The position numbers and the translations under genes are program-made. A stretch of 64,000 nucleotides of DNA from contig WTXG01000021.1 in assembly GCA_022496185.1 (NCBI GenBank), forward strand, positions 307,437 to 371,436, in the 5' to 3' direction. The notes beneath the pieces are model-generated. The model was given only the letters and a program-made list of their open reading frames with translations. It was not told the DNA's origin and did not search any database. Position 1 is the stretch's first letter, and each line of letters opens with the position of its first letter. Below, one piece after another: positions 2,313-64,000 of this stretch. The DNA comes from Multifurca ochricompacta (taxonomy: Eukaryota; Basidiomycota; Agaricomycetes; Russulales; Russulaceae).

Positions 2313-2830
2313 TGTCACAGTTAGGTGCGGAACTGTGTCGGGGATCGTGTGGGAGCTAGCCTCCCAAGTCGCGTCAAGATAAGTCAAGGCTCTAGGTCAC
2401 AGCAAAGTCAAGTTCTGGTCAAGCCCATGATGAAGTCAGAGGGCACGCGCGTGAGATTCGAGGTCGACGGCAGAGACTCTAAGTCCTGCAACAAGTTCAA
2501 GATGATGAAGGCTCTCCAAGTCACATCTTGGAGAGTTCAAGTGGGGCTCTAACTGAGAGGATTCAAGGATTTCCGAAGCACCTCTGATTGAATACAAGAG
2601 AACAGACTTCGTCTGTCTCTCTACTCTAGTAGGTCTTTAAATACATGTAGAACTAGCTATGTCATAGTAAATAGAAGGTTCTAGGACTATGACATAGTAT
2701 CTAAATAGTTGTGCAGTAGAATGAGCTAGAATTAAGGAGAATTAGGAGGGGTTAGGCCCTCAGTAAGCCAAAACACCGGTGAAACACAATGTCAAGTCAT
2801 TAGTAACGTCGCAGGGAGAATTCTGTCACA
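2313..2830 (-). mobile_element. LTR-b, copy 1
   Basis: This 518-bp sequence starts TGTCACAG and ends TTCTGTCACA, matching the solo LTR at 58130-58644 over nearly its whole length and, inverted, the window end at 63979. On the minus strand it has a TATA-like TATTTAAAG followed by a short pyrimidine-rich stretch, so minus is the likely transcription strand. The flanks (TCTAA left, CCGAG right) do not match, so it is probably the terminal LTR of the element to its left rather than a solo LTR. Confidence 0.85.
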
Positions 2831-2831
2831 C

Positions 2832-5099
2832 CGAGAGCGTATTCACCAAGTATTGGACATTCTGCACAAACATGATCTATACCTCAAACCAGCCAAGTGC
2901 TCATTTGAACAACGAAGCATAGAGTACCTGGGGGTTATCCTGGAAGGAGGACGGGTTCGGATGGATCCAGTAAAAGTGCAAGGGATTCGGGAATGGCCCG
3001 TACCCACGTGTATCAAGGATGTGTGATCCTTCATCGGATTCTGCAATTTCTACCGACGATTTGTACAAGGATTCTCGGGTATGGCCCAACCACTGAATAG
3101 GCTGTTAAAGAAGGATACACCCTGGCACTGGGGAGATGAACAACAACAAGCCTTTGAACAAATCCGAGACATTGTAGGCTCAGAACCAGTTCTTCTGCAA
3201 CCAGACCTGGAAAGACCCTTTGAACTCGAAGTAGACGCATCGCGTTTTGCAAACGGAGCCATACTAAACCAACGGGATGTGACAGGATTGCTTCATCCAG
3301 TCGCCTTTTACTCCGAAACATTCTCACCAGCAGAACGGAATTATGACATTTGGGACAGAGAACTGCTCGCCATTGTGAAAGCACTACGACATTGGCGACT
3401 GTATCTAGCAGGAACTCCCCATAAAACCATTATCCACACTGATCACTCCAACCTCTTATATTGGAAGGAACCCCACAAGATTAGTCGACGGGTTGCCCGT
3501 GAAGTCCTGGAACTGGAGGAATATAACTTCGTGCTGAAACATATTGCAGGAAGTCGCAATGCACGCGCAGATGCCTTGTCGCGACGGCCTGACTGGAACA
3601 GTGGCGAAGAAGACAATAATGATATCACGGTCCTGCCCGAAGAGGTTTTTGCAAAGACCGCCATCGTGAGCCTCCATGACATGGACCTATGGGCTCAAGT
3701 GTCACAAAATATGAACCAACACCTATGCAAGTCATGGGCAGATGCACATAATCTGAAGAAGATCGACGGTCTTTGGTGGAAGGACGGGGATCGACTCGTT
3801 GTCACCGGTGGCGACAACATTAAGAGGGGGGTGATCCATTTTCACCACAACCTCCCTTCTGCGGGCCACCCTGGCATTGCCAACACATATGCCCTGGCCA
3901 AACGAGACTACTGGTGGCCAGACATGAAGAAGGATGTGGAAAACTATGTGAAAGGATGCGCGGACTGCCAAGCCAACAAAGTAAACACACACCCGCACCC
4001 ACCAGCACCATTCCCGATCACACCTACGGCCGCATTACCATTCCAGACCATTGCGATGGACTTTATAGTCAAACTCCCCACCTCCAGAGGATTCGACTCT
4101 ATCTTGACCATCACCGACCATGATTGCTCTAAAGCGGCACTGTTCATACCCTGTAATGAATCCGTCACAGCAGAAGGCGTAGCCAAACTTTACCTGGATC
4201 ACGTCTACAGACACTATGGCCTCCCAGAGAAGATCATCTCTGACTGCGACCCACGCTTCACCTCCACCTTTGCCAGGGCGCTCTGTAAGACCTTGGACAT
4301 CACCCAGAATATTTCGACTGCCTATCACCCACAGACTGATGGACAATCAGAAAGGACGAACCAATGGCTAGAACAATATCTTCGGTTCTGGTGCAATGGA
4401 CAGCAGGACGACTGGGCTGACTGGTTAGCAATGGCAGAGTTTGCACACAACTCATGGCCCAACGGAACCACCAAGACCCCTCCATTCTCACTTATCATGG
4501 GATGGACGCCAAGGACCAACTGGACCAAGAAACCCACAAACGTCCCATTGGCTGCGCAGCGTATCAGCCAATGGGAGGAGATCAGGAAATCGGCCAATGA
4601 AAACCTGCTCAAGGCGCAAAGAACCCTATCCGAAAGGCCGTCGAAGTTCACACCTTATCGAACCAATGACCTTGTCTGGCTGGAGGGAAAGAACATTCAC
4701 ACGTCACACCCCACTGCTAAATTAGCTCCCCGACGTCACGGACCGTTCATGATAACAAGGAAGCTGTCAGATGTGTCATATGAACTCAAACTTCCACCCA
4801 CATGGAGAATTCACCCAGTCTTCCATGCCCAACTTCTGACACCTTACAGAGAGACAGCCCTGCATGGGGAGAACTTCCCGAGACCCCCCCCTGAATTAAT
4901 CGATGGAGAAGCGGAATGGGAAGTGGAGCGGATTCTAGATTCCTCGCGTAAAGGCCGAGGGCACAAGTTACACTACCTAATCAAGTGGAAAGGATTCCCA
5001 GACTCTGACAACTCGTGGGAGCCTGCCGGGAATATCTTTGCTCCGGCCCTTATCTCGGAGTTCCATGACCAACACCCAGAAGCGCCTAAGAATAGTTAA
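2832..5099 (+). pseudogene. pol: GyA-1 Pol: RT end, RNase H, integrase, chromodomain
   Basis: The frame opens inside RT ([19 protein letters not shown]), has one TGA at 3024-3026 where other copies have Arg in VRSFIGF, then runs 672 codons. RNase H is about 3200-3600 (ELEVDAS, RELLAIVKALRHW, IHTDHSNLLYW, ARADALSRR). The integrase zinc domain lies near 3830-3970 (GHPG, then GCADCQ), and the D,D,E core near 4045-4390 (MDFIVKLP, ISDCDPRFTS, HPQTDGQSERTN). The GPF module (4735-4830) and a chromodomain (about 4905-5035, EWEVERIL, LIKWKGFPDSDNSWEP) follow. RDPR has become CDPR, a CpG-type change. TAA ends the frame 34 nt before ORF3. Confidence 0.9.
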
Positions 5100-5133
5100 A
5101 AGATGACCCAGATCCCAAGAAAATCCCCAGTAC

Positions 5134-6372
5134 ATGCTCCCACAGCAACGTCCTACAACTATCGAATCCATCATGTCTTTCATCACTGCCAATGCTGCCA
5201 TCGACGCTTTCGCTGCTACCACAGTAGTCGTCGAAAACTTCCCTTCCGCTCACCCTTCCACACATCCCTCCTCACCTATCGACTACGAGGCTGCCAAAGC
5301 CCGAGTCAAGAACCAGTCTCCCAACCCCAACGACGACTTTGAACACTGTGACGAACCACATCCAAATGACCTGATAGGTATGGAGTCGGATGATGAGGTC
5401 CCCGAATTCCCCTTTTTTGTTAACAACCCGAACTCCTCCACATACTACCCGTTGGAGATCACCATGGGTGACGGGATGGTCAGGATCGCCAAATATATCT
5501 TCTACACCAATGGAGGGATGGATGTGGCCGGATGCATGAAGAAGGACGGTCCCGTTTATGGAGCTCCAGTATATCTGGAAGAAAGGTACACCGGTCGTCT
5601 ACATCACACCATGACCGACGAACAACTGGGGCACCTGGCCGCTGAAGATTCGCGGGCCTTCGCCATCGACGAGGTGCTGAGCGACATGCGACTTCCGCGT
5701 CTCAAAGCCGAGGTAATGAGACTGCGGAAGAATCTAACTTTACGCAACACACTCAACCAACAGTACAAAGAACACGCGAAGATGATGGCCCAGCTGACCA
5801 ACGGGATGTTTCAGGTTGAGCAGGAATTGGTGGAGATTCGAAAGAGGCTGGAAAAGGGGGATGCTTATCAGACAATTGCGGAAAGGTACGCCGACACCTA
5901 CGCTCGACCCCTGCCCCCACGATCATTGGGGGCTGCCCCCGTGCTACTGCCGAATCGGTTTGAGATGCCACATATGCACGAGAACCCTCGAGGAGAGACA
6001 TGCTGGCGCTGTGATAGCAAATATCACATCAGCTGGAACTGCCCCCTCAATCGCAAGTGGTGTCGACACTGTCGTAGCAACCAACACTGGAGCAGGTTCT
6101 GCATCTTCCGCCGAGTGGGAGTCACCCCGACGATCAGCAACCCGTCCGCATGGTGCGGCAAGTGCCTGCATCATAATGCAGGGCACCGAGAGTTAGACTG
6201 CCCTGTCCACGACCTGTGCCGCTTGTGTGGGCAACGCGGCCCCTATGGATTCCTCCGCACTCACCAGTGCCCCCAGGATGAGGACAAGGAGAACTATACA
6301 ATGGATGATCGTAATGTAGCTGATGACTACTTGGAGCTGGTGCAGGATGATGATGGTACAAGTCGTTTCTAG
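5134..6372 (+). CDS. GyA-1 ORF3, extra zinc-knuckle protein downstream of pol
   Basis: An intact 412-codon ORF, in +1 frame relative to pol, beginning 34 nt after the pol stop (ATG at 5134; a second ATG, MSFITANAAIDAF, at 5173 is also plausible). It has an N-terminal Ser/Pro region, a conserved central block (EFPFFVNNP, AKYIFYTNGGMDVAGCMKK, GPVYGAPVYLEERY), a coiled-coil-like stretch at about residues 187-240, then Cys clusters. Residues 290-303 and 310-323 are both perfect CX2CX4HX4C knuckles; 341-356 is CX2CX6HX4C; 362-379 is CX2CX11HXC. The C-terminus is acidic (DDYLELVQDDDG). A role in binding element RNA or in particle assembly is inference. I know no standard gypsy ORF in this position with this layout. 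Confidence 0.85.
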   Translation: MLPQQRPTTIESIMSFITANAAIDAFAATTVVVENFPSAHPSTHPSSPIDYEAAKARVKNQSPNPNDDFEHCDEPHPNDLIGMESDDEVPEFPFFVNNPNSSTYYPLEITMGDGMVRIAKYIFYTNGGMDVAGCMKKDGPVYGAPVYLEERYTGRLHHTMTDEQLGHLAAEDSRAFAIDEVLSDMRLPRLKAEVMRLRKNLTLRNTLNQQYKEHAKMMAQLTNGMFQVEQELVEIRKRLEKGDAYQTIAERYADTYARPLPPRSLGAAPVLLPNRFEMPHMHENPRGETCWRCDSKYHISWNCPLNRKWCRHCRSNQHWSRFCIFRRVGVTPTISNPSAWCGKCLHHNAGHRELDCPVHDLCRLCGQRGPYGFLRTHQCPQDEDKENYTMDDRNVADDYLELVQDDDGTSRF

Positions 6373-6403
6373 CCGGGTCTGCTAGAACCAGAAGAGGGGG
6401 TGA

Positions 6404-6997
6404 TGTTACAACCTCTACCATCTGTCCCTGTTTTCTTTTCACTCCCCAACAATGACCCCTCCTTGCCACCCACTTTGCACTTCTCAATCACGTCTCCATC
6501 CTGGGATCCATCACGTGCCCTACTTCCATCCCCGTGACCTGCTTTGGACTTGTTGACGTACTGTATACCTATGTTTGACCCTTTGACTCTTATCTCGCTA
6601 TCTCCTTATCGTTATGACCGGACACTTACTTAATACCCTATCAGAAGCTAGACTTTACGCCGTCCGCTTCCGTATATTTGGGCCCACTTGACTCCGTGTC
6701 CTTATCTCGTAGACGCCCATCGAGTTACGTATATAAGTCCACTGTAGCTACCTTGTAGACCTCAGACTTGACTTATTGAATACATCGGTGCCTGTCTTCT
6801 GGATGTCCCCTTTGATCTCTGACTCAGTTGTCTCAAGTACTTCTGGTACTTTTCCGCTCAACATCGTCTTAGGGAAGCGCCCCTTTGACTTTGACTCATC
6901 CCACCTCATCTCCAAGGAGCCTTATTGGTTTCTTACCCGAATCCACGAACCGCGCTGTCACACAAGTCGTGTGGAACGTCCCGCACCGGGCGTAACA
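6404..6997 (+). mobile_element. GyA-1 3' LTR
   Basis: A 594-bp LTR with short inverted ends TGTTAC...GTAACA, preceded by a polypurine tract. It contains TATATAAG followed by the predicted mRNA start AGACTTGACTT, as in the other GyA LTRs. The next base begins a gag fragment of another GyA copy, so the element was inserted into, or recombined with, that copy. Confidence 0.92.
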
Positions 6998-8453: not shown

Positions 8454-9038
8454 TGTTACACCCAGTGTGGGACATTCCACATGACTTGTGTGACAGCACG
8501 ATTTGTAGGTTCAGGTTAGAAACCAATAAGGCTCCTTGGAGTTGAAATGGGACAAGTCAAAGTCCAAGGGGCTGCTCCCTAAGACAATGTTGAGCAGACA
8601 AATGCCAAAAGCACTGAGACAAATGAGTCAAAGATTCAAGGGGATGTCCAGAAGACAAGCACTGATGTATTCAATAAGTCAAGTCTGAGGTCTACAAGGT
8701 AGCTACAGTGGACTTATATACGTAATTCAGTGGGCGTCTACGAGATAAGGGTACAGAGTCAAGTGGGCCTGAATATCCGAAAGCAGACAGCATAAAGCCA
8801 GGCTTCTGATAGGGGATTAAGTAAGTGTCCGGTCATAAAGATAAGAAGATAAGAGATAAGGGATCAAACATAGGTAAATGTTGAGTCAACAAGTACAAAA
8901 TGAATCACAGGGACGGAAGCAGAGCACGTGATGGGTCCCAGGATGGAGACATAATGAGGAAGTGCAGAGTGGGCGGTAAAGAGGGGTTATCATTGGGGAG
9001 AGTGAAGAAAATGGGGTTAGACGGTAGAGACTGTAACA
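8454..9038 (-). mobile_element. GyA-2 3' LTR
   Basis: A 585-bp GyA LTR in reverse orientation (plus strand TGTTACACCC...CTGTAACA), followed directly by the polypurine tract complement and the end of ORF3. It carries the inverted TATATAAG box and the AAGTCAAGTCT complement of the predicted mRNA start. Confidence 0.9.
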
Positions 9039-9526
9039 TCACCCCCTCTTCTGGTTCTAGCAGACCTGGCTAGAAATGACTCGTACCATCATCATCCTGC
9101 ACCAAGTCCAAATAGTCATCAGCTACATTACAATCATCTATGGTGTAGTTCTCCTTGTCCAAGTCTTGGGGACACCTGTGGGTGCGGAGGAATCTGTAGG
9201 GGCTGCATTGGCCACACAATTGACACAAGTCATGGATGGGACAGTCCAGTTCATGGTGTCCCAAGTTGTGGCATAAACATTTGCCACACCATCTGGATGG
9301 ATTGACAATCATCAGGGCAACTCCTATGTGGCAGAAGATACAGAACCTGCTCCAGTGCAGGTCGCTATGACAGTGCTGGCACCACTTGTGGTTGAGAGGA
9401 CAGTTCCAACTGATATGGTACTTACTGTCACAATGCCAACATGTCTCGCCACAGGGGTTCTTGTGCATATGTGGCATCTCGAACCAATTTGGCAGCAGCA
9501 TAGGGGCAGCCCCCAACAACCGTGGG

Positions 9527-10806
9527 TGTAATGCTCAGCGGGGCGTTCTGTGCGACATGCACCGATTGGCTTAAGTCCACTAGTCCGGCACTAGTCAGCC
9601 ACTTCCACGGCACCCGACACTATGGGTCCGGGATCTACAACAGGCCTAGCACAACAGGGCTAGCCTCTTAGCTTCAGGATGGATAGGAAAATGTGCCATA
9701 ACCAAGCACAGAGGAAGACAGGAAGAGTCAGCCACAGGGAGCTAATCCCCTAAGGCTGTTGAGTGGGAACAGGGCCAAGCTGAGTGTGCTGAAGCCCTAT
9801 GAAGCGGCAAGAAGGTTCAAAAGGAAGGGTACACACCCATTGCCAGAGGCAATGGGGGTCCCTGTAAGGATCTCAAAGGTGCAAAAGAAGGGGAAAAGGC
9901 TTTGATGGATTCTGGGGTCTAAGATCTCTAGGCTGAAGGCCCAAGAGGTCAAATCTAGGGTTGTACAAACTGTCTACAGGGTCTTATATACTGTATGGAG
10001 ATCTGGTTTGTAGCTAATCAGGAACAGGGTCAGAGTCCTTATCATCCAATAGCAGATAAGATGTCAAATATAGTCCATGATAAGGATAAGCCTTATCAGA
10101 AGCATAATCATGTGGGACAGCCCCACAGGAGTCATATCAGTGTGGGAGGATTCCCACCAGGGTCAGGGGTAAATGGGGAGATAACAGGTCCCACAGGAGT
10201 CAGGGTGGATGTGGGAATACTCCCACAGGAATCAGAGAAGCGAATGATAAGCCAGATGGGCCATGTGATCAGAAAGGGGTAAATGATCAGATGAAGATGC
10301 TGTGATCAGGGTCAGGGATCACATGGTCCAAAGTCACATGGTCAGGGATCACATGGTCAAGGATCACATGGTCAGGGATCACATGGCCAGAGGTCACATG
10401 ACTGGCAGAGGGTCAAGTACAAGCCAAAGTCGTCTAGTTGTCTGGACTGGTCAGATTGGCAGGGACAATGTCAGGGGTTCCTATGGGTGTCAAGCACAGG
10501 GACAGGGTCAGGAGCAGTGGCCAAGGCATAAGCCAAGGCAGCAAGGAAGGGTGGTATACATCCAACAGTGTAGCAGCATAACTACCAGCAGGTTAGGTGT
10601 AAATGGCAGCATGGGAGGTCAGTCCTATGAACAATGTCACAGGAATCAGGGTAGGGTCCTGGGCACACAGGCCACAGGCATCAAGGAAGGTCCCAAGGCA
10701 ACAGGCCAAGGGCATCAAAGAGTGGTCCAGAGAAGGAGGAGATCAAGGATGGTGCAAAGAATAAGGCATGGTGTGCAGGGTCAGGAAAAAGAGTAGGGTC
10801 ATAACA
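9527..10806 (+). mobile_element. Solo LTR-c, copy 1, in ORF3 of GyA-2
   Basis: A 1280-bp sequence (TGTAATGCTC...GGTCATAACA) flanked by GTGGG on both sides (9522-9526, 10807-10811), so it is one integration followed by LTR-LTR recombination, or a non-autonomous unit. A second copy is at 33601-34925. No coding potential. Strand is nominal. It contains a short tandem array of ATCACATGGTCAGGG-type units and repeated CCCACAGGAGTCA motifs. No internal region of this family occurs in the window. Confidence 0.88.
10306..10405 (+). repeat. Minisatellite in LTR-c, TCACATGGTCAGGG units
   Basis: About six imperfect units of 14-17 bp sharing TCACATGG. The homologous array in the second LTR-c (34446-34550) has a different mix of GGTC and GGCC variants. 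Open frames through it yield repeated RDHMV peptides and should not be taken as a protein. Confidence 0.8.
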
Positions 10807-11736
10807 GTGGGGGTAGGGGTCAGGCATATGTATTGGCATACCTCTCAGCAATGGTTTGGTATGCATCCCCTTTCTCCAACCTTTTCCAAATCTCCACCAG
10901 TTCCTGCTCTACTTGGAACATCCCATTGGTCAGCCTTGCCATCATCTTCACATGTTCTTTATATTGCTTGTTGAGTGTATTGCATAAGGTCAGGTTCTTC
11001 TGCAGTCTCATTACCTCAGCTTTGAGATGTGGAAGTCGCATGTCACTCAACACCTCATCGATGGCAAAGGCCTGAGAGTCTTCTGCAGCCAGGTGTCCAA
11101 GCTGTTCATTGGTCATTGTGTGGTGTAAACGACCTGTGTACCTTTCCTCCAAATAGACTGGAGCTCCATAAACTGGGCCGTCCTTCTTCATACATCTGGC
11201 CACGTCCATTCCCCCATTGGTGTAAAAGATGTACTTGGTGATGGCAACCGTCCTGTCACCCATGGTGATCTCCAATGGGTAATACATGGAGGAATTTGGG
11301 TTGTTGGTGAAGAAAGGGAATTCCAGGACCTCGTCATCCAACTCCATACCTATCAGGTCATTTGGATGTGGTTCTTCACAGTGTTCAAAGTTGTCATTAG
11401 GATTGGGGGATTGGTTCTTGACTCAGGCCTTGGCGGCTTCATAGTCAATGGGAGAGGAAGGATGAGTGGAAGGGTGAGCAGAGGGAAAGTTCTCAACAAC
11501 TACGACAGTGGAGGTGAATGCATTGACGGCAGCATTGGCAGTGACAAAAGACATGATGGAGTGTATGGTGTTAGAACATTGCTGGGAGAGCATGTACTGG
11601 GGAGTCTGGTCAGGGTCTGATGGTCATTCCTTTTAACTGTCTCTAGGCACTTCCAGATGTCGGTTGTGAAACTCCAAGATAAGGGTCGGGGCAAAGATAT
11701 TTCTGGCTGGTTCCCATGAGTTGTCAGAGTCTGGGA

Positions 11737-17258: not shown

Positions 17259-17840
17259 TGTTACGACCCCTGCCAAGCAACCCCATTTTCTTTACCCTCC
17301 CCAATGCGAACCCTCTGTTACCGCCTGTGTTACATTTCTTGATCACATCCCTGTCCTGGGATCCATCACATGCCCTCCTTCCATCCCCGTGACCCAGTTT
17401 GCATCTGTTGACACGCTGCTTGTTCCTATTTGCCTTTTTATCTCTTTATCTTCTTATCTTAAGATCGGACACTTACTTAGTACCCTATCAGAAGCTAGGC
17501 TTTATGCCATCCACTTTCGTATATTTGGGCCCACCTGACTCAGTTATCTTATCTATAGACGCCCACTAGATTACGTATATAAGTCCGCTGTAACTACATT
17601 GTAGACTTCAGACTCGACTTATTGAATACATCGGTGCTTGTCTTCTGGACATCCCTTTGGACGCTTGACTCAACCATCTCAGTACTTCTGGTACTTTCCG
17701 CTTAACATCGTCGTCAAGTACAGCCTTGTCGACTTTGACTCCTTCCATCTAAACTCCAAGGGATCTCATTGGTCCCTTATCTGATCACGAACGAACGCTG
17801 TCACACAAGTTGTGTGGAATGTCCCGCACTGGATGTAACA
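17259..17840 (+). mobile_element. GyA-3 5' LTR
   Basis: A 582-bp LTR bounded by TGTTAC and GTAACA. It contains the TATA box (17576-17583) and predicted start (17610). The following PBS does not begin with TGG, arguing against ordinary tRNA 3'-end priming. Confidence 0.92.
17576..17620 (+). promoter_or_regulatory. GyA-3 TATA box and predicted mRNA start
   Basis: TATATAAG lies at 17576-17583, and AGACTCGACTT at 17610-17620, 34 nt downstream, where a Pol II start is expected. This 11-mer is the exact complement of the sequence just after the LTR, which is why I place the mRNA start here. The start itself is inferred. Confidence 0.7.
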
Positions 17841-17842
17841 TC

Positions 17843-17853
17843 AAGTCGAGTCT
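17843..17853 (+). promoter_or_regulatory. GyA-3 self-priming primer binding site
   Basis: AAGTCGAGTCT begins 2 nt after the LTR end and is an 11-nt perfect complement of 17610-17620. In the fission yeast Tf1 element the first 11 nt of the mRNA fold back to such a site, are cleaved, and prime reverse transcription. Same length and position here support that mechanism. Confidence 0.75.
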
Positions 17854-17859
17854 CTCATC

Positions 17860-19368
17860 GTGGCTTCCAGCCGCAGTCAGACCCTGTTTAAAGAAGAACT
17901 CATCGAATGCAGAGACGAGAATAATCTTTCACAACAAGTACTTGGCTCTGCCGCCTGGAAAGATTTTGAATCCGAGTTTGGATACTACGTCTATCACGAC
18001 GGAAGATACCAACCAGTAGAATATGACGATGAAAAGAGAGTCTGGTATCGTATCCGATATTCAGAAAGCCGACACTCTTGGGTCACTACAGGACCTGCAC
18101 CACCAGAATTTGGACTAGGGCCGTGGAGAGAAAACCCCCCGGCTATCATTACGGACTCTGAACCAGAAGAGTATGTAGAAGAAAACAGTGAAGAAGCACT
18201 GGTATTAGCATCGACTACCGCCCCAGTTGCACCTGCAGTTGTCACGATCAGAGCCCCTGCTTTGACAACTCCTCAGATATCCATACAGTCTACCGACACA
18301 GTCACCCCGTTTTACCAAAACATGTCCACCATTGCCGCCCAACTCCCCGACCCAGCCCCTCCACCCCCACCACCAGTCATGGCGCCACCAAACATTCCTC
18401 CGCCTTCAGGACGACTATCAGGCGTGTTACCCCAGACATTCACAGGGGATCGTTCACAGAGCAAGAAGTTTATGTTGGAGTTCACTACCTTCAAAAACTT
18501 CAATCACGACGTCGCCCAGATCATTAACCCGTTCCAGCGGGCTAACCTCTTTCTCTCTCTCATCCGAGGAGAGGCCGTAGATGATTGGACGATGGAGCAG
18601 CTGGAGTGGCTGAATGAACAAATAGAGAGTGGATGACGGACCACGAGTGAAGGCCTTTGGGAAACAATTGCCCAGAGGTTTAAAGATGCATTTACCGATG
18701 GGCAGGCCAAACAGAAGGCAGCCCGAGAACTAAAGTCTCTAAAAATGGACAAAGGAGACCTTGATGCTTATGTCGCCAAATTCAGAAGCCTGGCCAATAG
18801 AGCTGGGTATGACACCGACGAAGAGGCCACGCTGGACCTCTTCTCCCAAGGGTTACCAAACCCTTTGGTGAAGAACATCATACAGTTCCATCATCCCAAC
18901 GATTGGGATTCCTGGGTCGATGCTGCCCGATGACAGCAGCAGGACTACCTTGACTTCCAAACACGTTTTGGGGTAGACACCAAAAAAGGGAAGACTCGAG
19001 ACCAGTGGAAAGCGGCCTTCAGTGTCAAACCTGTACATCACCAGAGAGATCCAAATGCCATGGATACCTCGGCAGACAGAACCCGAGCAAGGGCAATGCT
19101 CACGGAGGATGAGCGTCAGATGTTGATGAAGGAAGGTCGGTGCTTCTGCTGTAAAGCACAAGGACATATGTCTCGAGACTGTCCAAAGAAGGGAGCACGT
19201 GTTGCTGAAGCCACTACCACCCCAATTCACCCCATCAGCAACCCACCTACGACAGACAAACGAACCAAAGAGGAGAAGGCCCAGGACATATGGGCAAATA
19301 TGATGAAAGAAAGCAAGGAAGTGCACGCCATCTTAGTCGAGAAGGCGTTTGCAAAGAAGGATTTTTGA
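17860..19368 (+). pseudogene. gag: GyA-3 Gag
   Basis: The frame runs from a GTG (MASSRSQTL if initiated there) to TGA at 19366-19368, with TGA codons at 18634 and 18931 where related copies have Arg. An N-terminal region (WVTTGPAPPEFGLGPWREN), a Pro-rich linker, a retrotransposon capsid-like domain (GDRSQSKKFMLEF...NPFQRANLFLSLIRG...DDWTMEQLEW) and one CCHC knuckle (CFCCKAQGHMSRDC) are seen. There is no in-frame ATG between the LTR stop and MSTIAAQLPDP, about 155 codons in, although the upstream part is conserved. Gag forms the particle and packages RNA. Confidence 0.85.
19359..19368 (+). promoter_or_regulatory. GyA-3 -1 frameshift site at the gag-pol junction
   Basis: GGATTTTTGA: Gag reads GAT TTT TGA, Pol continues in -1 as TTT TTG ATT. 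A run of five T lets the TTT tRNA slip back one base before the stop. The same ten bases occur at this junction in GyA-2 (17220-17229) and GyB-2 (43303-43312), both on the minus strand. Confidence 0.65.
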
Positions 19369-22300
19369 TTGGCTCTACCCCATCGGCCTGGGCACGAGCA
19401 CTCCATGTAACCTCTGTGTATACTAGTCGCTTCAAATCTTTGAAAATACCAGTACATTTTGAAACTACACAGAGGATGGCCGATCGAGATATCCTGGTTG
19501 ATTCAGGAGCTACCGATAATTTCATCAGCCCACGATTAGCAAGGACTATGGGGCTAGGGATGCTGGCACTCCCCCAAGAAAAGAACATTTGGAACATTGA
19601 TGGGACGGCCAACCGAGCAGGAAAGATTACACACTATACTGATCTCAACGTCCAAGTGGGAGAAAGAACGAAGGTCATTCGTTTCCTAGTCACCAATCTA
19701 GGGGACGAAGATCTCATTTTGGGATACCCTGGCTGGCGGCATTCGAACCAAAGATTAACTGGATGGATGCCACTATGGATAAAGATTCTTACCCAGTCTT
19801 AATCACATCTCTGGGATACGATTACCTGGCCCGGCATGCAGTAATCAATGGCACCACTGAAGTGGAAAGAGAGGATCCCGGACGTTGCTACGTCACGAAA
19901 GCATCAGAACTGGCCCAGAAAGCGGTACAAGGACAAACCGAGAAAACCTTCGAAGAGGTAGTACCTGTCACTTACCACCGACATTGGAAGGTATTCTCGG
20001 AGGAAGAGTCGCAGTGCTTCCCACCAGCGCGCCCTTGGGACCATGCTATTGATTTTGTGCCGGAGACACCGCAAGCAATAGATTGTAAAATCTACCCCTT
20101 GTCCCAACAAGAACAGGAAGCGTTGACAATGTTTCTCGAAGAGCAACTGGCAAAAGGGTACATCCGTCCATCCAAGTCGCAGTATGCCTCACCCTTCTTC
20201 TTCATCAAGAAGAAGGATGGCAAGCTCGACCCATACAGGATTACCGGCGCATAAACGCCTACACAGTAAAGAATGCCTATCCGCTGCCTCTTATTTCAGA
20301 ACTCATTGACACCATGAGGGACAAGTCACTCTTCTCAAAGATGGATGTCCAATGGGGGTATAACAACATCCGGATCAGGGAGGGAGATCAATGCAAGGCA
20401 GCCTTTAAGACTAATCAAGGCCTGTTTGAGCCAAACGTCATGTTCTTCGGTCTCACCAACTCACCAGCCACCTTCCAATCAATGATGAATCACATTTTCC
20501 GTGACCTTATTCTCACTGGCGAGGTAGTGGTGTACATGGATGACATATTAGTGGCGACTCCAACGATCTCCCACATCATCAGGAGCGAGTCCACCAGGTG
20601 TTGGTATCCTACAAGAGCACGACCTATATCTCAAACCGTCAAAATGCTCATTTGAACAACGAAGTGTCGAGTACTTGGGGGTCATCTTGGAAGGTGGCAC
20701 GTACGAATGGATCCGGTAAAGGTGCAGGGGATTCGGGAATGGCCCACGCCCACATGTGTCAAAGAAGTAAGATCCTTTATAGGATTCTGCAACTTCTATA
20801 ACGTTTTGTACGAGGATTCTCTGGAATCGCGCAACCACTTAACGGGTTGTTAAAGAAGGACGTACCCTGGCACTGGGGAAAAGAGCAACAACAAGCATTT
20901 GAACAGATCCGAGACATTGTTGGCTCAGAACCTGTCCTCCTGCAGCCGGATCTAGCAAAGCCTTTTGAACTTGAGTCGACGCCTCCCACTTTGCCAATGG
21001 GGCAGTACTGAATCAGAGGGACACCACAGGAGTGCTCCACCCAGTGGCCTTCTTTTCTGAGACGTTCTCACCAGCCGAACGAAATTATGACATTTGGGAT
21101 CACGAACTCCTTGCCATTGTAAAAGCCTTACGACATTGGAGACCATATCTAGCCGGAACCCCTCATAAAACCGTCATCCACACCAACCATTCCAACCTAT
21201 TATATTGGAAGGAACCCCATAAGATTAGTCGACGAGTCACCCGTGAAGTCCTGGAACTTGAGGAGTACAACTTCACACTAAACATATTGCTGGAAGTTGT
21301 AACGCCCGTGCGGATGCTCTATCACGAAGGGCAGATAAACAAGGAGGCGAAGAAGATAATGAAGATATCACCATACTCCCCAAAGAGGTCTTTACGCGTA
21401 CAGCAGTTGTCAGCCTCCATGATATGGACTTATGGGCACAAGTATCACAGAATATGAACCAACAACTCTGCCAGTCCTGGGCAGAAGCACATAATCTGAA
21501 AAAGATAGATGGCCTTTGGTGGAAGGACAGTGATCGACTCGTTGTCACCGGTGGTGACAACATTAAGAGGGGGTGATCCATTTTCACCACGACCTCCCCT
21601 CTGCGGGCCACCCTGGCATTACTAACACATACGCCCTGGCCAAATGAGACTATTGGTGGCCCAACATGAAGAAGGACGTAGAGAGCTATGTTAAAGGATG
21701 TGCGGACTGCCAGGCCAATAAAGTAAATATGCATACGTGTCCACCAGCATTGTTCCCAATCACACCAATGGCCTCACTACCATTCCAGACCATTGCAATG
21801 GATTTTATTGTCAAGCTCCCCATCTCCAGAGGCTTTGACTCAATCCTGACTATCACCGACCACGACTGCTCCAAAGTGGCACTGTTCATACCATGCAACG
21901 AGTCTATCACAGCAGAAGGGGTAGCCAAACTCTACCTAAATCACGTCTACCGACATTACGGCCTCCCAGAAAAGATCATTTCTGACCGTGACCCACGTTT
22001 CACCTCCGCATTCGCCAAGGCACTCTGTAAAGTCTTGGATATCACCCAAAACATTTCAACTGCCTACCATCCACAGACAGATGGACAGTCCGAAAGAACG
22101 AACCAATGGCTAGAACAGTACCTTCGATTCTGGTGCAATGGATGACAGGATGATTGGGCCGATTGGCTAGCCATGGCAGAATTTGCGCATAACTCATGGC
22201 CCAACGGGACCACCAAAACCCCTCCATTCTCACTTATCATGGGATGGACGCCGCGAACGACCTGGACCAATAAGCCAACAAACGTTCCATTAGCTGCACA

Positions 22301-22840
22301 GCGTATCGACCAATGGAATGAGGTCAGGAAATCAGCCAATGAAAATCTGCTCAAGGCACAAAAGGCTCTGATGGACAGACCTTCGAAATTCACACCTTAT
22401 CAGACCAATGACCTTGTCTGGCTGGAAGGGAAGAACATTCATACATCACACCCAATGGCCAAGTTAGCGCCCCGATGTCACGGACCATTCAAGATAACAA
22501 GGAAGCTGTCAGATGTGTCATATGAACTCGAGCTTCCATCCACATGGAGAATTCACCCAGTCTTCCATGCCAAACTTCTGACACCCTATAGAGAGACGAC
22601 CCTACATGGGGAAAACTTCCCGAGACCTCCCCTGAATTAATCGATGGGGAAGCGGAATGGGAAGTGGAGCGGATTCTAGACTCCCAGCGAAAAGGCTGTG
22701 GGCGCAAACTGCATTACCTAGTCAAGTGGAAAGGATTCCCAGACTCTGACAACTCGTGGGAGCCGACTGGGAATATCTTTGCCCCAGTCCTTATCTCGGA
22801 GTTTCATGACCAACATCCAGAAGCGCCCAGAGACAATTAA
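19369..22840 (+). pseudogene. pol: GyA-3 Pol: protease to chromodomain
   Basis: Protease (ILVDSGATDNF), RT ([38 protein letters not shown] intact), RNase H (near 20990-21330), integrase (GCADCQ, MDFIVKLP, ISDRDPRFTS, TDGQSERTN), GPF module and chromodomain. Beside one clear TGA (22142, before QDDW) there are at least seven one- or few-base losses, for example near 19728, 20225, 20605, 20695, 20975, 21573 and 22630. TAA at 22838-22840 lies 40 nt before ORF3. Confidence 0.87.
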
Positions 22841-22880
22841 AAGGAACCAACCTGCAGACTCCAAAGAAATTCCCCAGTAC

Positions 22881-24107
22881 ATGCTCCCACAGCAACGTCC
22901 TACCACCATTTACTCTATCATGTCTTTCATCGCTGCCAATGCTGCCATTGACGCTTTCACCGCTACCAATGTAACTGTCGAAAACTTTCCCTCTGCCCAT
23001 CCTTCTACATGCCCCTCTTCACCCATCGACTATGAGGCCGCTGCAGCTCGAGTAAAGAATCAATCTCCCAACCCAAACGACAACTTTGAGCACAGTGAGG
23101 AGCCACACCCGAACGACCTGTTGGGCATGGAGCTAGATGACGAAGTACCCAAATTTCCATTCATTGCTAACAACCCCAACTCGTCCATGTATTTCCCCCT
23201 CGAGATCACCATGGCTGATGGAACAACCGCCATCGCCAAGTACATATTCTATACCAATGGAGGGATGGATGTTGCGGGTTGTATGAAGAAAGATGGCCCT
23301 GTTTATGGGGCCCCGGTCTATCTAGAGGAAAGGTATACAGGATGTTTGCATCATACGTTGACCGACGAACAGCTTGGACATCTGGCCGCCGAGGACTCTC
23401 GCGCCTTTGCGATTGACAAGGTGATGAGTGACATGCGCCTTCCATGTCTCAAGGCCGAAGTCATGCGACTGCGGAAGAATTTAACACTGCGCACGATGCT
23501 CAACAAACAGTACAAGGAGCACGCAAAAATGATGGCCTGACTCACTAATGGGATGTTCCAAGTTGAACAGGAGCTGGTAGAGATTCGAAAGAGATTGGAG
23601 ATTGGGGATGCGTACCAGACCATTGCTGAAAGGTACACTGACACATACACACGACCGCTCCCCCCCCGATCATTGGGGGCTGCCCCCCGACTACTGCCAA
23701 ATCGGTTTGAGATGCCACGGATGCACGAGAACCCCCGGGGTGAGACATGCTGGTGATGTGATAGCAAGTATCACATTAGCTGGAACTGCCCGCTCAATTG
23801 CAAATGGTGCCGTCACTGCCGGAGTAATCTGCACTGGAGTTGCTTCTGCATTTTCTGTCGCGTGGGTGTCGCCCCGATGATCGTCAACCCCTCAGGGTGG
23901 TGCGGCAAATGTCTGCGTCACAATGCAGGACATCGCGAACTCGATTGCCCAGTCTACGACTTATGCCGACAATGTGGACGACGTGGCCCGTATGGGTTCT
24001 TGCGCACGCATCAATGCGCGACTGACGACACTTATACCACTGACGATCGAAACCTAGCAGATGATTATGTAGACCTGGTGCAGGACGATGATGGTGCGCG
24101 TTTCTAG
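22881..24107 (+). pseudogene. GyA-3 ORF3
   Basis: One continuous frame of 409 codons broken by only two TGA: at 23538 (GyA-2 has Arg there) and at 23754, within knuckle 1 (CW*C, Arg in GyA-1). Otherwise it follows GyA-1: MSFIAANAAIDAF, YIFYTNGGMDVAGCMKK, the coiled-coil-like region, knuckle 2 (CRHC...HWSCFC), clusters 3 and 4 (CGKC, CRQC), and the acidic end DDYVDLVQDDDG. The relation to pol is again +1. Confidence 0.85.
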
Positions 24108-24138
24108 CTGGGTCAGCTTGAACCAGAAGGGAGGGTGA

Positions 24139-24726
24139 TGTTACGACCAGGGCCTAGCACCCCACTTTTCTTCACTCTCCCTAACAAGAACCCATCCCTT
24201 CCGCCTACTCTCCACTTCTTGATCATGTCCCCGTCCTGGGATCCCTCACGTGCCCTGCTTCCATCCCCGTGACTGTTGATTGTCCATGTTGACTCGTTAT
24301 TTACCTTTGCTATGGATTCTCTTATCGCTTATCTCCCTATCTCTAAGACCGGACACTTACTTAATACCCTATCAGAAGCCAGGCTTTACGCCATCCGCTT
24401 TCGTATATTCGGGTCCACATGACTCCTTGATATCTTATCTTTAGACGCTCACCCAATTACGTATATAAGTCCGCTGTAACTACATTGTAGACTTCAGACT
24501 CAACTTATTGAATACATTGGTGCTTGTCTTCTGGACATCCCTTTGGACGCTTGACTCGATCATCTCAGTACTTCTGGTACTTTCCGCTTAACATTGTCTT
24601 CAAGTACGGCCTTGTCAACTTTGACTCCTCCCATCTAAACTCCAAGGGATCCTATTGGTCCCTTATCTGATCACGAACAAATGCTGTCACACAAGTCATG
24701 TGGAACGTCCCGCACTGGACGTAACA
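24139..24726 (+). mobile_element. GyA-3 3' LTR
   Basis: 588 bp, TGTTAC...GTAACA, preceded by the purine-rich CAGAAGGGAGGGTGA. Most changes from the 5' LTR that I scanned are transitions, such as the start 11-mer AGACTCAACTT versus AGACTCGACTT, but there are also length changes. Confidence 0.92.
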
Positions 24727-30875: not shown

Positions 30876-32207
30876 CTAGATTGGCATACCATCATCATCC
30901 TGGACCAAGGAGAGGTAATTGTCAGCTACAGCATAGTGGTCAGCATTGTAGTTCTCCTTTTCTTCATCTGTGGGGCAAACGTGTGTTCATAGAAAACCAT
31001 AGGGCCCCTGTCTCCCACAGCGAAAGCAGCCATTGTAAACATGACAGTTGATCTCTCAGTGGCCAGCATTGTGGGAAAGGCATTTACCACACCATCCCAA
31101 TGGATTCTGGATGGTGGGGGCTTGTGTAAGTTGTCAGAACAGGCATTGGCGGCTCCAGTGTGAGGTACTCTGGCAATGTTGACATCACTTCTTGGCTGTG
31201 GGACAACACCAGCTGAGATGGTACTTGCTGCTGCATTGCCAGCAAAGCTTACCATCAGAATTTTCATGGAGGCATGGCATTTCAAGGGCATGTGGGTTGA
31301 GCTGGGGTGCAAGGTCAAGGCGGCAACGGGGAAGGGGTTGGGCAAAAATGTCTGTGTACTGTTCAGATATAATTTGGTATGCCTCTCTGAGCTCTAGTCG
31401 TGTCCTAATGCCGGCCAGGTGCAATTCTATGTTGAAGACTCCTCAATTAATCCTCACCATCTGCCATTCATAGTCACGATGCTGCATCTCTAGGTTGTCC
31501 CTGAGTGCCTGGAACTTGCACAGTCATGCGATTTCAGCAGTCAATCACAGCATGCGCAAGTCTTGGAGTACTTCATTAATTGCAAAGGCACATGGGTCAT
31601 TGGCTGACAAGTGTTGCAGATGCTCTGGCCCCAAGATGTAGTGGAGCCTGTTGGTCTTCTTTTCTTCCAGATACACCAGAGCCCCATAGACTGGTCCTCC
31701 CCTTTCCAGACATCCAGTGACGTCCATACCTTCATTGGTATAGTAGATGTACTTAGCAATTTCAGTCATCCCATCACTCCTGGATGTTGGGATCATCAAT
31801 GGGAAGTAAAATTGTGAATCAGGGTTATTCAGGAAAAAGGGGAACTCAGGGACCTTGTTGCCGAAGTCGACATCAATCAGGTCATTTGGATGGGGTTCTT
31901 CAGGCAGAGCAAAATCCTCGTTGATGTTAGTGGCTCTGATCCCTTTGGCCACTTTGGTGGCAGCATCATAGTCAATAGGAGATAATGGGCGAGAAGGAGG
32001 ATGCACAGGAGAAAGTAGGGGAAACACATCGATGGTGGCAGAGGTGTGGACACTGGATGGAGACATGGATGTTGTTCTGGGCAGTTGTGGGGAAAGAGGT
32101 TGTCCTGTTGATTGTATAGCAGGCTGCTCTTTATCTGCCTGGGGATGGTGTCTATAGAAGTCTTTGATAAGCTTGGGTGCAAAGACATCTGCAGCAGATT
32201 CCCACAA
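30876..32207 (-). pseudogene. GyB-1 ORF3, fused to the chromodomain frame
   Basis: It continues in frame from the end of the chromodomain (ESAADVFAPKLIKDFYRHHPQ) into the ORF3 signature (SPIDYDAATKVAKG, EFPFFLNNPDSQFYFPL, YIYYTNEGMDVTGCLERGG), a helical region, knuckles CWQC...HLSWCC and CQHC...HWSRQC, CGKC and CFRC clusters, and the end YLSLVQDDDGMPI. Several TGA or TAG-like breaks and Arg losses mark decay. There is no stop between chromodomain and ORF3, unlike GyA. Confidence 0.82.
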
Positions 32208-37699: not shown

Positions 37700-37919
37700 T
37701 GTTGGAATAGCAGCACGCACAGAAAGGTACCGGAGATGGTGGGCTGGACTAACAACTACTATACGACTTACATTCACATTCCAATATGCATATAAGATAG
37801 ACTACTGCGTAGTGTTTAGAACCTCAGTCTTCTACTACAAAGACTGAGGTTAGTACCATTCTCAATCATAGCTACAGCATTCATTAACTGACTCTATCAC
37901 TGTAGCTATTCACTATACA

Positions 37920-38545: not shown

Positions 38546-39913
38546 CTAGATTGGCGCACCATCATCATCCTGGACCAAGGAGAGGTAGTCGTCAGCTACG
38601 GCGTAGTGGTCTGCATCGTAATTTTCCTTCTCTTCGTCAGTGGGGCAAATGTGTGCTTGTAGAAAACCATAGGGCCCTCACCTCCCACATCGAAAGCAGC
38701 CATCGTAAACATGACAATCGATTTCTCGATGTCCAGCGTTGTGGGAGAGACACTTGCCGCACCACCCAGACGGGTTCTGGATGGTAGGGGCCTGTGTAAG
38801 TCATCAGAACAAGCATTGATGACTCCAGTGTGAGGTGCTTTGGCAGTGTCGACATTGCTTCTTGGCCGTGGGACAACACCAGCTGAGATGGTACTTGCTG
38901 CTACAGCACCAGCAAAGCTTACTGTTGGGGTTTTCATGGAGGCATGGCATTTCGAAACAATGGGGATTGAGCCGAGGTGCGAGATCGAGGCGGCGACGGG
39001 GGAGCAGTCGGGCAAAGATGTCTGCATACCATTCAGATATAATTTGGTATGCCTCCCCTCATTCCAGCCTCGTCCTAATGCTGGCCAGGTGGTGCTCTAT
39101 GTCAAAAACCCCTCGGTTGATCTTCACCATCTGTCGCTCGTAATCGCGACGCTGCATCTCCAGGTTGTCCCAGAGCGCCTGGAACTTGCGGAGTCGCGCA
39201 ATCTCAGCCATCAGTCATGGCATATGGAGGTCTCGAAGCACCTCATTGATAGCAAAAGCGCAGGGGTCATGGGCCAAGAGGTGTTGCAAATGTTCGGGTC
39301 CCAAGACGTAATGCAGCCAATCGACATTCTTTTCTTCCAAGTAGACTGGAGCCCCATAGACAGGCCCTCCTTTTTCCAGGCATCCAGCTACATCCATGCC
39401 TTCGTTGGTGTAGTAGATATATTTGGCCACCTCTGTAGTGCCATCATTTTTGGATGATGGGATCATAAGCAGGAAGTAAAACTGTGAGTTGGGGTCATTG
39501 GGGAAGAAGGGGAACTTGGGGGATTCATTGCCAAAGTCTACATCAATCAGGTCATTGGGATGGGGGTGCTCAGGCAGATTAAAATCTTCATCGATGTTGA
39601 TGATTCTGTCCCCTTGGGCCACTTGGGCGGTCGCATCGTAGTCAATAGGAGAAAGTGGGTGAGAAGGAGGGTGCACAGGAGTAAGTATGGGAAACGCATT
39701 GATGGCGGTGGAGGCATGGATCTTAGATGATGACATGGGTGAGTTTCTGGTCAGTTGTGGGGGAGAGAATGGTTCAGCAACTCGTATTTTCTCCGGCTCT
39801 TTATCTGCTTCTGGGTGGCGCCTATAGAAGTCTTCGATAAGCTTGGGTGCAAAGACATCTGCAGCAGATTCCCATGAGTTATCGGCATCTGGGAATCCCT
39901 TCCATTTGATCAA
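38546..39913 (-). pseudogene. GyB-2 ORF3, in frame with Pol
   Basis: The frame passes without a stop from the chromodomain (LIKWKGFPDADNSWE, 39913) through a Ser/Pro linker into ORF3 (SPIDYDATAQVAQG, KFPFFPNDPNSQFYF, YIYYTNEGMDVAGCLEKGG, GPVYGAPVYLEEK), then a helical zone, knuckles CWCC...HLSWCC and CRHC...HWSHQC, CGKC and CFRC clusters, and YLSLVQDDDGAPI. Five TGA codons interrupt: MP*L, LE*G, two adjacent in F**L, and R*G. No frameshift is seen. Here the extra protein would be made as the C-terminal part of Pol. Confidence 0.87.
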
Positions 39914-42900: not shown

Positions 42901-43306
42901 CTTCTGCCCAGTTGATTCTGGGTTCGAATGCTGCTAGCCATGGGTATCCCAAAACCATATCCTCATCTCCTAGATCTGTGATGAGGAAGCAAAGTTGCTT
43001 AGTTTGCTCCCCAACCTGCACTTCTAAGTCGCAGCAGTGCGTGATCTTTCCGGCTCTGTTGGCTGTCCCATCTATATTCCAAATGTTTTTCTCCTGGGGA
43101 AGTAACTGTGTCCCCAGTCCTAGTGTTCTCTGAAGTCTTTGACTGATAAAGTTGTCTGTTGCTCCAGAGTTGATCAATATCTGTCTGTTGGCTGTCTTCT
43201 GTTTGGTTTCAAAATGTACTGGTATTTTTAAGGACTTGAAACGACTAGTGTATACAGAAGTTACATGGAGTGCTCTTGCCCAGGCCGATGGGGTTGAGCC
43301 GATCAA
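39914..43306 (-). pseudogene. pol: GyB-2 Pol: protease, RT, RNase H, integrase, chromodomain
   Basis: From the slip site: protease (ILINSGATDNF, catalytic Asp now Asn), RT ([39 protein letters not shown] intact), RNase H (ELEVNASMYANG, RELLAIVKAL, IIYTDHSNLLYW), integrase zinc part (GCAECQANK), core (MDFIVKLP, ISDRDP, TNQWLEQYL), GPF module and chromodomain (EWEVERIADAKW). All segments share one minus frame. I read nine nonsense codons, all TGA, at positions with Arg in related copies (for example H*HWK, F*DLIL, L*HWR, SE*TNQ). Confidence 0.9.
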
Positions 43307-43312
43307 AAATCC
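43303..43312 (-). promoter_or_regulatory. GyB-2 -1 frameshift site
   Basis: On the minus strand GGATTTTTGA: Gag frame GAT TTT TGA, Pol frame GGA TTT TTG. Frames on either side differ by exactly -1, and the sequence is identical to GyA-2 and GyA-3. Confidence 0.65.
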
Positions 43313-44832
43313 TTCTGGCCAAAGGCCTTGTCAACGAGTAGGGCACATACTGCCTCATCCTCATTCATCATATGCTCCCATATCGCTTCTGCTTTCTGTT
43401 CTTTAGTTTTTAGGGTGGTTGCTGGGTTGTCTTTTGTTGGAGTTGGTAGGTTTTGTGCTGGCAATGTCATGGTGGTAGTGGCTACCGTTGCTTCAGCAGC
43501 ACAGACCGTCTTCTTTGGGCAGAATCGTGACATGTGCCCTTGTGCTCGGCAATGGAAGCAACGTCCTTCCTTCATCAGATTTTTCTTTTCATCATCGGTG
43601 AGGGCTGCACGGGCTCTGGTGCGATCTGCCGACGTATCCATGGCGTTGGGGTCTCGCGAGGTAGTAGGTTTTACCCCAAACACCGCCTTCCACTGATCGT
43701 GGGTTTTACCCTTCTTTGTGTCCATTCCAAAGTGCATTTGGAAATCCAAATAATCCTGCTGCTGCATCCTGGCAGCGCTCGTCCACTGGCTCCATGATTC
43801 AGGGTGATGGAACTGGATGATGTTTTTCACCAGGGGGTTGGGCAGCCCCTGGGAGAAGAGGTTGAGGGTTGCCTCTTCATTCACATCGTACCCTGCTCTC
43901 TTGGCCAGATTGTGGAACTTGGCTATGTAGCCATCTAGATCCCCTCTTTCCATTTTAAGGGATTTCAATTCTCTGGCGGCTTTCTGTTTGGCCTGCCCAT
44001 CCGTGAAGGCGTCTTTGAATCTTTGCGCCACTACATCCCACAGATCCTCATCCGTGGTTCTAGTTCTGGCTGTAACTCTGTCGTTCAGCCATTTGATCTG
44101 CTCCATTGTCCAGTCATTGACAGAATCCCCTCTGATAAGTGAGAGGAAGAGGTTGGTGCGTTGAAAAGGGTTCACGATTTGTGGGACGTCATGATTAAAA
44201 TTTTTGAATGTCTCAAACTTGAGCATGAACTTTTTGCTCTGAGATCGATCACCAGTGAACATAGTCGGCAGGACTCCCGTAAGGCATCCTGATGGGGGGG
44301 GGAGGTTCGGAGCAGGGACAGTCGGAGCTGGGTCTGGTAATTGTGCAGCAATGGTCGACATTGTTGGGTACATGATAGTCGGGGTGTCTGAGATTTGTTG
44401 TGTAATCTGGGGAGAGACTAAAGCAGATGTTCTGAACGTAGTACTCTCGGGTGCAACTGTCTGAGCCATAAAACTAGGGGCTATGACTTGTGCGTCTTCA
44501 CTGCTTTCTTCGATATATTCTTCGGTTTCGGAGTCTGTGACGATGGCTGGAGGATTCTCTCTCCAAGGTCCTAAGCCGTACTCTGGTGGGGCAGGTCCTG
44601 TGGTAACCCAGGAACAATGGCTTCTAGAGTAACGGATACGGTACCAGAATCTTTTCTGTTTGTTGTATTCAACTGGCTGGTACTGGTCGTCATGATAGAC
44701 GTAGTATCCAAACTCGGTTTCAAAATCTTTCCAGACGGCAGAGCCAAGGACTTGTTGTGAAAGATTATCCTCATCTCGGCAGTCGATGAGTTCTTCATTG
44801 TGCAAGGTCTGACTGTGGCTGGATGAAGCCAC
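43303..44832 (-). CDS. gag: GyB-2 Gag
   Basis: An uninterrupted 509-codon frame, ending in the TGA of the slip site. Capsid-like domain (GDRSQSKKFMLKFETFKNF, NPFQRTNLFLSLIRGD, DWTMEQIKW), a KLKMERGDLDGYIAKF-like helical part, and one CCHC knuckle CFHCRAQGHMSRFC near residue 424. The frame opens at a GTG only 22 nt after the LTR; the first ATG gives MYPTMSTIAAQL at about residue 150. Since the upstream 150 codons are conserved with GyA, initiation is unresolved (see findings). Gag would build the particle. Confidence 0.85.
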   Translation of the reverse strand: MASSSHSQTLHNEELIDCRDEDNLSQQVLGSAVWKDFETEFGYYVYHDDQYQPVEYNKQKRFWYRIRYSRSHCSWVTTGPAPPEYGLGPWRENPPAIVTDSETEEYIEESSEDAQVIAPSFMAQTVAPESTTFRTSALVSPQITQQISDTPTIMYPTMSTIAAQLPDPAPTVPAPNLPPPSGCLTGVLPTMFTGDRSQSKKFMLKFETFKNFNHDVPQIVNPFQRTNLFLSLIRGDSVNDWTMEQIKWLNDRVTARTRTTDEDLWDVVAQRFKDAFTDGQAKQKAARELKSLKMERGDLDGYIAKFHNLAKRAGYDVNEEATLNLFSQGLPNPLVKNIIQFHHPESWSQWTSAARMQQQDYLDFQMHFGMDTKKGKTHDQWKAVFGVKPTTSRDPNAMDTSADRTRARAALTDDEKKNLMKEGRCFHCRAQGHMSRFCPKKTVCAAEATVATTTMTLPAQNLPTPTKDNPATTLKTKEQKAEAIWEHMMNEDEAVCALLVDKAFGQKDF

Positions 44833-63794: not shown

Positions 63795-63864
63795 AAGGAG
63801 GACAGACTCCCACCTCTTTCCCCCAGAACAACGCTTCACCAGCAATGTCCTAACCACAACTGAT

Positions 63865-63978
63865 ATGTCTTCCTCTTTCATCGCTGCCTCCGCTGCTATC
63901 GACGCCTTCGCTGCCACTCATGTGGTTGTAGAGGCTTTTCCCTCCGCTCATCCCTCCACTCGTCCTTCCTCCCCTATT
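63865..63978 (+). pseudogene. GyA-4 ORF3, N-terminal fragment
   Basis: 38 codons (MSSSFIAASAAIDAFAATHV, then FPSAHPSTRPSSPI) match the GyA ORF3 N-terminus. It is cut by the LTR-b at 63979; the rest should continue right of the window. The distance from the pol stop (70 nt) is longer than in GyA-1 because the upstream ATG region has changed. Confidence 0.8.
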
Positions 63979-64000
63979 GTGACAGAATTCTCCCTGCAAC
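63979..64000 (+). mobile_element. Start of another LTR-b
   Basis: TGTGACAGAATTCTCCCTGC is the reverse complement of the right end of the other LTR-b copies. It runs out of the window; solo or full element cannot be told. Confidence 0.8.

Follow-up and report, generated by a model that had tools for sequence, protein, structure and literature searches.

A conserved Cys/His-cluster protein encoded after pol in two sister families of fungal chromoviruses

Introduction

Why should a Ty3/Gypsy element carry a further protein after pol, and what could such a protein do there? According to the sections covered of a 2010 survey of fungal and spikemoss chromoviruses, the majority of full-length Gypsy elements in fungi code for Gag and Pol in one or two ORFs (PMC2864245). 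In the window studied here, the whole stretch of 64,000 nucleotides that was analysed, an earlier note had described a conserved reading frame, ORF3, between the chromodomain and the 3' LTR of two element families, GyA and GyB, and had proposed a second nucleocapsid-like or RNA-binding protein retained by selection.

Results

ORF3 in the window

When all six frames of the window were searched with an ORF3 profile, every one of the six places named for ORF3 was recovered (Table 1), and all matches besides these six copies had an E value of 0.045 or higher. A pol end lies immediately 5' of each of the six copies (tblastn). The 3' LTR that was said to follow ORF3 is seen as an LTR or LTR-like repeat at four copies (6403, 8454-9039, 24168 and 37919-38218), and the copy at 63850 ends with the window. 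The intervals first given for the two GyB copies, 30876-32207 and 38546-39913, do contain ORF3, but they also take in the end of the pol frame, to which ORF3 is fused. A pol frame of the Copia type, 742 aa long (24655-26883), in which Pfam finds Pol_BBD, integrase and SH3_retrovirus domains, starts inside the end of the GyA LTR at 24168-24726.

Table 1. Elements and ORF3 copies located in the window
Feature	Position	Strand	Remarks	Source
GyA pol, 3' part	2796..5099	+	ends in TAA; end of RT (alignment), RNase H, integrase zinc-binding, SH3_Tf2-1, chromodomain	Pfam, tblastn, junction
GyA ORF3	5134..6372 (profile match 5131-6369)	+	412 codons without a stop; contains the conserved block, the coiled coil and four Cys/His clusters (alignment)	ORF list, profile search, alignment
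GyA LTR 3' of ORF3	6403..6997	+	82% identity to L039 LTR	blastn
GyA ORF3, second copy	9073..11596	-	interrupted by insertion at about 9535-10807; parts 9073-9534 and 10808-11596, about 1.27 kb between	six-frame profile search of window
GyA copy, LTR-gag-pol-ORF3-LTR	17288..24726	+	pol scattered over several frames	
ORF3 of GyA copy 17288..24726	22878-24098	+	two stops	
GyB ORF3	30879..32066 (profile match 30882-32087)	-	7 in-frame stops	
Chromodomain end preceding GyB ORF3 30879..32066	32067-32207	-	in frame with that ORF3	
GyB ORF3	38549..39736 (profile match 38555-39733)	-	5 in-frame stops	
GyB pol	39797-43396	-	shares frame with ORF3 38549..39736	
GyB Gag	43306..44829	-	gag/capsid domain; single CCHC below Pfam cut-off	
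Further GyA ORF3, 5' start	63850..64000	+	cut at window end	profile search

The host elements

The order read at locus L039 is LTR, gag, pol, ORF3, purine-rich tract and LTR. Pol contains protease, RT, RNase H, integrase and chromodomain; of the domains found with Pfam, the integrase core is below the cut-off and the others are above it. The succession of RT, RNase H and integrase with a C-terminal chromodomain is that of the Ty3/Gypsy chromoviruses (Pfam, tblastn). In the GyA Gag, a capsid-type domain is accompanied by one canonical CCHC knuckle above the Pfam cut-off. In L039 and L042, a site of 11 bases placed two bases past the LTR has its complement in an LTR stretch about 30 bases downstream of a TATA-like box, at the predicted 5' end of the mRNA, an arrangement which we take to resemble the self-priming of Tf1-like elements. 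As read from sequence, GyA and GyB are chromoviruses, with a putative self-priming site of the Tf1-like kind.

The LTR pairs of L039, L040 and L042 are 99.1-99.5% identical and that of L041 98.5% over the partial length compared; L042 has a 5 bp target-site duplication, GATAA, and no matching duplication was found at L039. The ORF3-bearing elements thus appear to have been recently mobile. That the two families have different LTRs, as had been stated, is largely true, although the GyA LTR and the presumed GyB LTRs have about 140 bases in common at 71% (blastn). The Gag frame opens at the LTR end and runs without an ATG for about 150-160 codons (L039:1601-2085; window 44375-44829, minus strand), and these codons are nonetheless conserved between GyA and GyB; a non-AUG start or a spliced leader are candidates for the Gag start.

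Copy number and decay in the genome

The assembly searched comprises 53.8 Mb in 605 contigs. When GyA ORF3 was used as the query, the best 99 of 2239 candidates were scored, which were 86-100% identical to it and 59 of which were stop-free (manual count). A 24-base motif at the GyA ORF3 start had 266 exact matches in the genome and a pattern for the junction from the pol stop to ORF3 had 465, with none for the reversed motif or the reversed pattern; these copy counts may hold loci assembled twice, as pattern matches in contigs C594 and C597 look alike. Since the tabulated stops in GyA and GyB ORF3 copies are TGA (22 of 22 positions) where other copies mostly read CGA, CpG-type decay affects these elements. 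Stops of the other two types, TAA and TAG, are present as well in some of the GyA ORF3 genome matches. The TGA-for-CGA stops point to CpG methylation decay in the host.

Linkage of ORF3 to pol

A single frame runs in GyB from the chromodomain through a proline-rich linker into ORF3. A query across this join matched in one frame in 150 of 150 scored cases, the best 150 of 1892 candidates, two of which reach only just past the join and among which broken copies would rank lower. With a DNA pattern blind to the frame, the frame was kept in 60 of 65 GyB junctions (manual count), the junction length being 80 in 58 matches and 77 in two, and the other five were off frame. Judging from the frame, GyB ORF3 is part of the predicted Pol protein unless a protease cuts it off.

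GyA ORF3, in contrast, is separate. Here, pol terminates in TAA within a conserved TAAAAG in most of the junctions read and a linker of variable length follows, while the offsets between the two frames, in the first 100 of the 465 matches, are evenly spread (30/33/37). In a GyA-like subset (L058-L062), moreover, a stop in the ORF3 frame lies shortly before the ATG at four of five loci. Readthrough or a programmed frameshift as the general route to GyA ORF3 was rejected on account of the variable linker, the even spread of the offsets and the stop before the ATG. Since GyA pol ends in a stop and the frames are unrelated, ORF3 must start independently, either by reinitiation or from another mRNA. 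By eye, no clear branch site was seen for splicing at a conserved CCCCAG before the first GyA ATG, and a GTACATG motif before ORF3 was not found in the five GyA-like loci.

The fused and separate forms were not part of the earlier note and bear on what ORF3 may be. One proposal is that ORF3 exports unspliced element RNA from the nucleus or stabilises it, in the manner of CERV of the nematode element Cer1 or of Rev, as it shares with CERV its general make-up of a coiled coil plus Cys clusters. However, CERV is made from a spliced mRNA of five exons, the first of which are in the gag frame (PMC10309623, sections covered), whereas no splice-site pattern stood out by eye at the junctions before GyA ORF3, and a place within the Pol frame, as in GyB, is unlike that of an early regulator. 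We consider such an export function unlikely.

The ORF3 protein

ORF3 has a length of about 400 codons, and the GyA and GyB proteins are 52-57% identical. The four Cys/His clusters were found as claimed, two of them CX2CX4HX4C, the others being one CX2CX6HX4C and one CX2CX11HXC. None of the 16 Cys/His ligands varies among the 35 tabulated GyA copies; the departures seen in 12 GyB rows look as if they stem mostly from a single frameshifted copy, and there is one further change of Cys to Phe. The C-terminal half of the protein is basic.

In line with the coiled-coil-like stretch, AlphaFold modelled a helix, the central part of which has a pLDDT of 73-90 in the model of the conserved block. Structure prediction of this block, as had been suggested, succeeded to that extent only: the helix is the sole region of ORF3 modelled confidently, mean pLDDT values of 41 and 62 for full-length ORF3 and the conserved block are too weak for fold claims, and Foldseek gave no fold match in the PDB at E 0.001. 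No Pfam family was reported at E 0.01 for 28 ORF3 members, the weak matches at higher E falling on the coil, and no zf-CCHC model was found at E 5 for P0002, P0003 and P0007.

A profile search of solved structures with ORF3 returned 33 matches, none of them significant (best E 0.061), and 15 of the 17 that fall on the zinc region are Lin28 or retroelement nucleocapsid/Gag, also non-significant. The proposal of a second nucleocapsid-like or RNA-binding protein is therefore supported in part: it is favoured by the tandem knuckles, two of the four clusters having the CX2CX4HX4C motif of a Gag nucleocapsid, and by the kind of structures matched, but no match is significant, no Pfam zinc-knuckle model is hit, and ORF3 follows pol instead of lying at the Gag C terminus after the capsid. 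A duplicate of Gag was rejected, as BLASTP matches between Gag and ORF3 are short and weak, the best one lying at the knuckles with an E value of 0.015.

Relatives and phylogeny

Using a single ORF3 sequence, nothing was found in the protein database at E 0.01. Searching the same database with an alignment gave three relatives at E 10. Two are proteins of 209 and 155 residues from Multifurca ochricompacta, a basidiomycete of the Russulaceae, with 67-68% identity, which contain the block and the coil without the clusters. The third one is a metagenomic protein of 444 residues with 34% identity and four clusters of the same spacing as in ORF3. These relatives speak against a restriction of homologues to this locus. 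When the metagenomic protein was used to search the genome, the best 95 of 1760 candidates matched at 34-38%, and no family closer to it was seen among the 95. In viral contigs nothing was found. In loci L058-L062, ORF3 forms a further subset which starts with MSSSFIAASAA and is 84-89% identical to GyA; identity to a Multifurca protein is 74-75% in four of the five loci and 64% over a longer stretch in L059.

A control search of the protein database with pol yielded 6076 matches among 7992 scored, compared to only three relatives of ORF3. The ORF3 profile matched none of 120 listed pol relatives, among which a separate ORF3 would not show, as the proteins end at ORF ends. Fungal gene sets often mask repeats, and genes like ORF3 may be missed for this reason.

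A FastTree phylogeny was built from 69 integrase-chromodomain sequences, comprising three GyA, four GyB, two GyC and alternate members of the 120 public matches, and in it GyA and GyB were grouped with a support of 1.0, excluding all public sequences used; one GyA row (L040), which had been cut in the wrong frame, fell out of the tree. The earlier note was right in counting two families, but these are sisters in one clade, and therefore a single acquisition of ORF3 suffices. GyC, a third chromovirus family, shares 46-49% identity with GyA-type copies over the integrase end, and no ORF3 follows its chromodomain on the GyC strand at three loci (L055, L056 and L057). The one ORF3 match in L057 is antisense to GyC and beside a GyA-like piece.

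These comparisons bear on a role of ORF3 as a chromatin- or DNA-binding module of the integrase end that would aid the chromodomain in the choice of integration sites. Its position directly after the chromodomain, in frame in all the scored GyB joins, would fit such a role; however, ORF3 is separate in GyA, GyC has a chromodomain and no ORF3 at the three loci, and the weak matches of the clusters are knuckle proteins and not chromatin readers, so that we doubt this explanation.

Selection on ORF3

Selection was measured as the rate at codon position 2 divided by the rate at fourfold sites, with a neutral value near 1, and transversions alone were compared because CpG decay does not produce them. 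The ratio was 0.079 for GyA ORF3 (35 copies) and 0.103 for the 3' part of GyA pol (23 copies), 0.181 for GyB ORF3 (12 copies) and 0.088 for GyB pol (15 rows, including three from GyA), and the same DNA read in wrong frames as a control gave 3.2-9.1. The GyA copies were mostly best protein matches to the window ORF3 and were required to align over 95% of the query, and ten GyB loci were picked for long open frames; the junction-pattern counts (465 and 65) are free of such open-frame or best-match bias. The rows of L009 and L040 (duplicates) and one GyB pol row were left out before counting.

These results show that ORF3 is under purifying selection, with a strength like that on pol in GyA and about half of that on pol in GyB, where the weaker constraint is perhaps due to older copies. 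A dN/dS near 1 with CpG sites set aside was thus not seen, and the claim that ORF3 has been retained by selection is upheld by the transversion ratios, the invariance of the ligands and the homologues in the protein database.

Virus accessory proteins often counter host silencing, and since the elements suffer from CpG-type decay, ORF3 might act against RNAi or methylation. We judge this improbable, given that slow evolution, at the level of pol in GyA, would be unusual for a protein in an arms race. It is very improbable indeed that ORF3 is an Env-like protein or a functionless, passively carried fragment of a host gene. Env-like ORFs, too, are located after pol, but a simple hydropathy scale applied to the L039 copy showed no membrane-type segment or long hydrophobic stretch, the maximum over 19 residues being 1.46 and found at the N terminus only, and the Env-like protein was rejected for lack of a transmembrane segment; purifying selection and the relatives in the protein database both argue against a functionless fragment.

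Discussion

A possible role at the Pol stage

We propose that ORF3 is a nucleic-acid-binding, self-associating helper or cofactor of Pol, a reading to which we give a probability of roughly 0.45. Our preference comes from the two linkages: a protein joined to the integrase end in one family and free in its sister is most easily explained if ORF3 acts where Pol acts. Against it, a second nucleocapsid would be unneeded for packaging because the GyA Gag already has a canonical knuckle. ORF3 probably goes back to a single gain that predates the split of GyA and GyB, and selection would have kept it from then on. The long coiled coil is expected to mediate self-association or oligomerisation, and the tandem zinc knuckles, if they bind zinc, are predicted to bind the nucleic acid of the element. 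Within the particle or the integration complex, ORF3 may then act as a chaperone of RNA or cDNA close to integrase. Since it extends Pol at the C terminus, the GyB protein would be made at the dose of Pol and sit beside integrase and chromodomain, while in GyA it would be expressed separately, initiated at the ATG after the pol stop by reinitiation or from a separate mRNA.

Selection of pol-like strength on GyA ORF3 suggests a replication step beyond Gag and Pol. More tentatively, and with some doubt, we speculate that ORF3 represents a new retroelement protein family, with four zinc clusters, a coiled coil and nucleic-acid binding, which would be the essential third gene of a chromovirus lineage, switched between a Pol-fused and a free form and serving a replication step new to Ty3/Gypsy elements. 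The natural pair formed by the fused GyB and the separate GyA protein makes the role of ORF3 testable.

Comparison with known systems

GyA and GyB have the RT-RNaseH-INT-chromodomain order, a Gag with one CCHC and the putative 11-nt self-priming site in common with fungal chromoviruses including the Tf1-like ones, and differ from other fungal chromoviruses by the extra conserved protein after the chromodomain. The survey cited above marks an additional ORF in some element, and in its sections covered there is no mention of a zinc-cluster protein after pol (PMC2864245). In the same sections, Postia placenta elements are described with dUTPase domains at varying places of Pol, once C-terminal (PMC2864245); this is an extra Pol domain as in GyB, but an enzyme, whereas ORF3 is without a Pfam match. 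Within the parts covered of the literature searched, including PMC2864245, PMC3248453 and PMC3411680, the ORF3 protein was not found described.

Additional proteins are found in other LTR elements as well. In CERV of the C. elegans element Cer1, a Cys-rich region may be a zinc finger and there is a potential leucine zipper; the protein is needed for the export of genomic RNA and shows no obvious homology outside nematodes, as stated in the sections covered (PMC10309623). Both CERV and ORF3 are extra and Cys-rich; CERV comes from a spliced message that includes the gag frame. LTR elements of bdelloid rotifers have, besides gag and pol, a third ORF as in GyA, including types other than env (GDSL, DEDDy, coiled-coil or membrane) and typically expressed from spliced messages (PMC5408684, sections covered), and their contents differ from those of the GyA and GyB ORF3. 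Extra ORFs in retroelements are of a known kind, among which ORF3 is a real, selected third gene. Like retroviral nucleocapsid and Lin28, it has two CCHC clusters in tandem, the profile similarity being weak and non-significant; in contrast to both, ORF3 has two further, atypical clusters, a coiled coil and the conserved block, and is located outside Gag.
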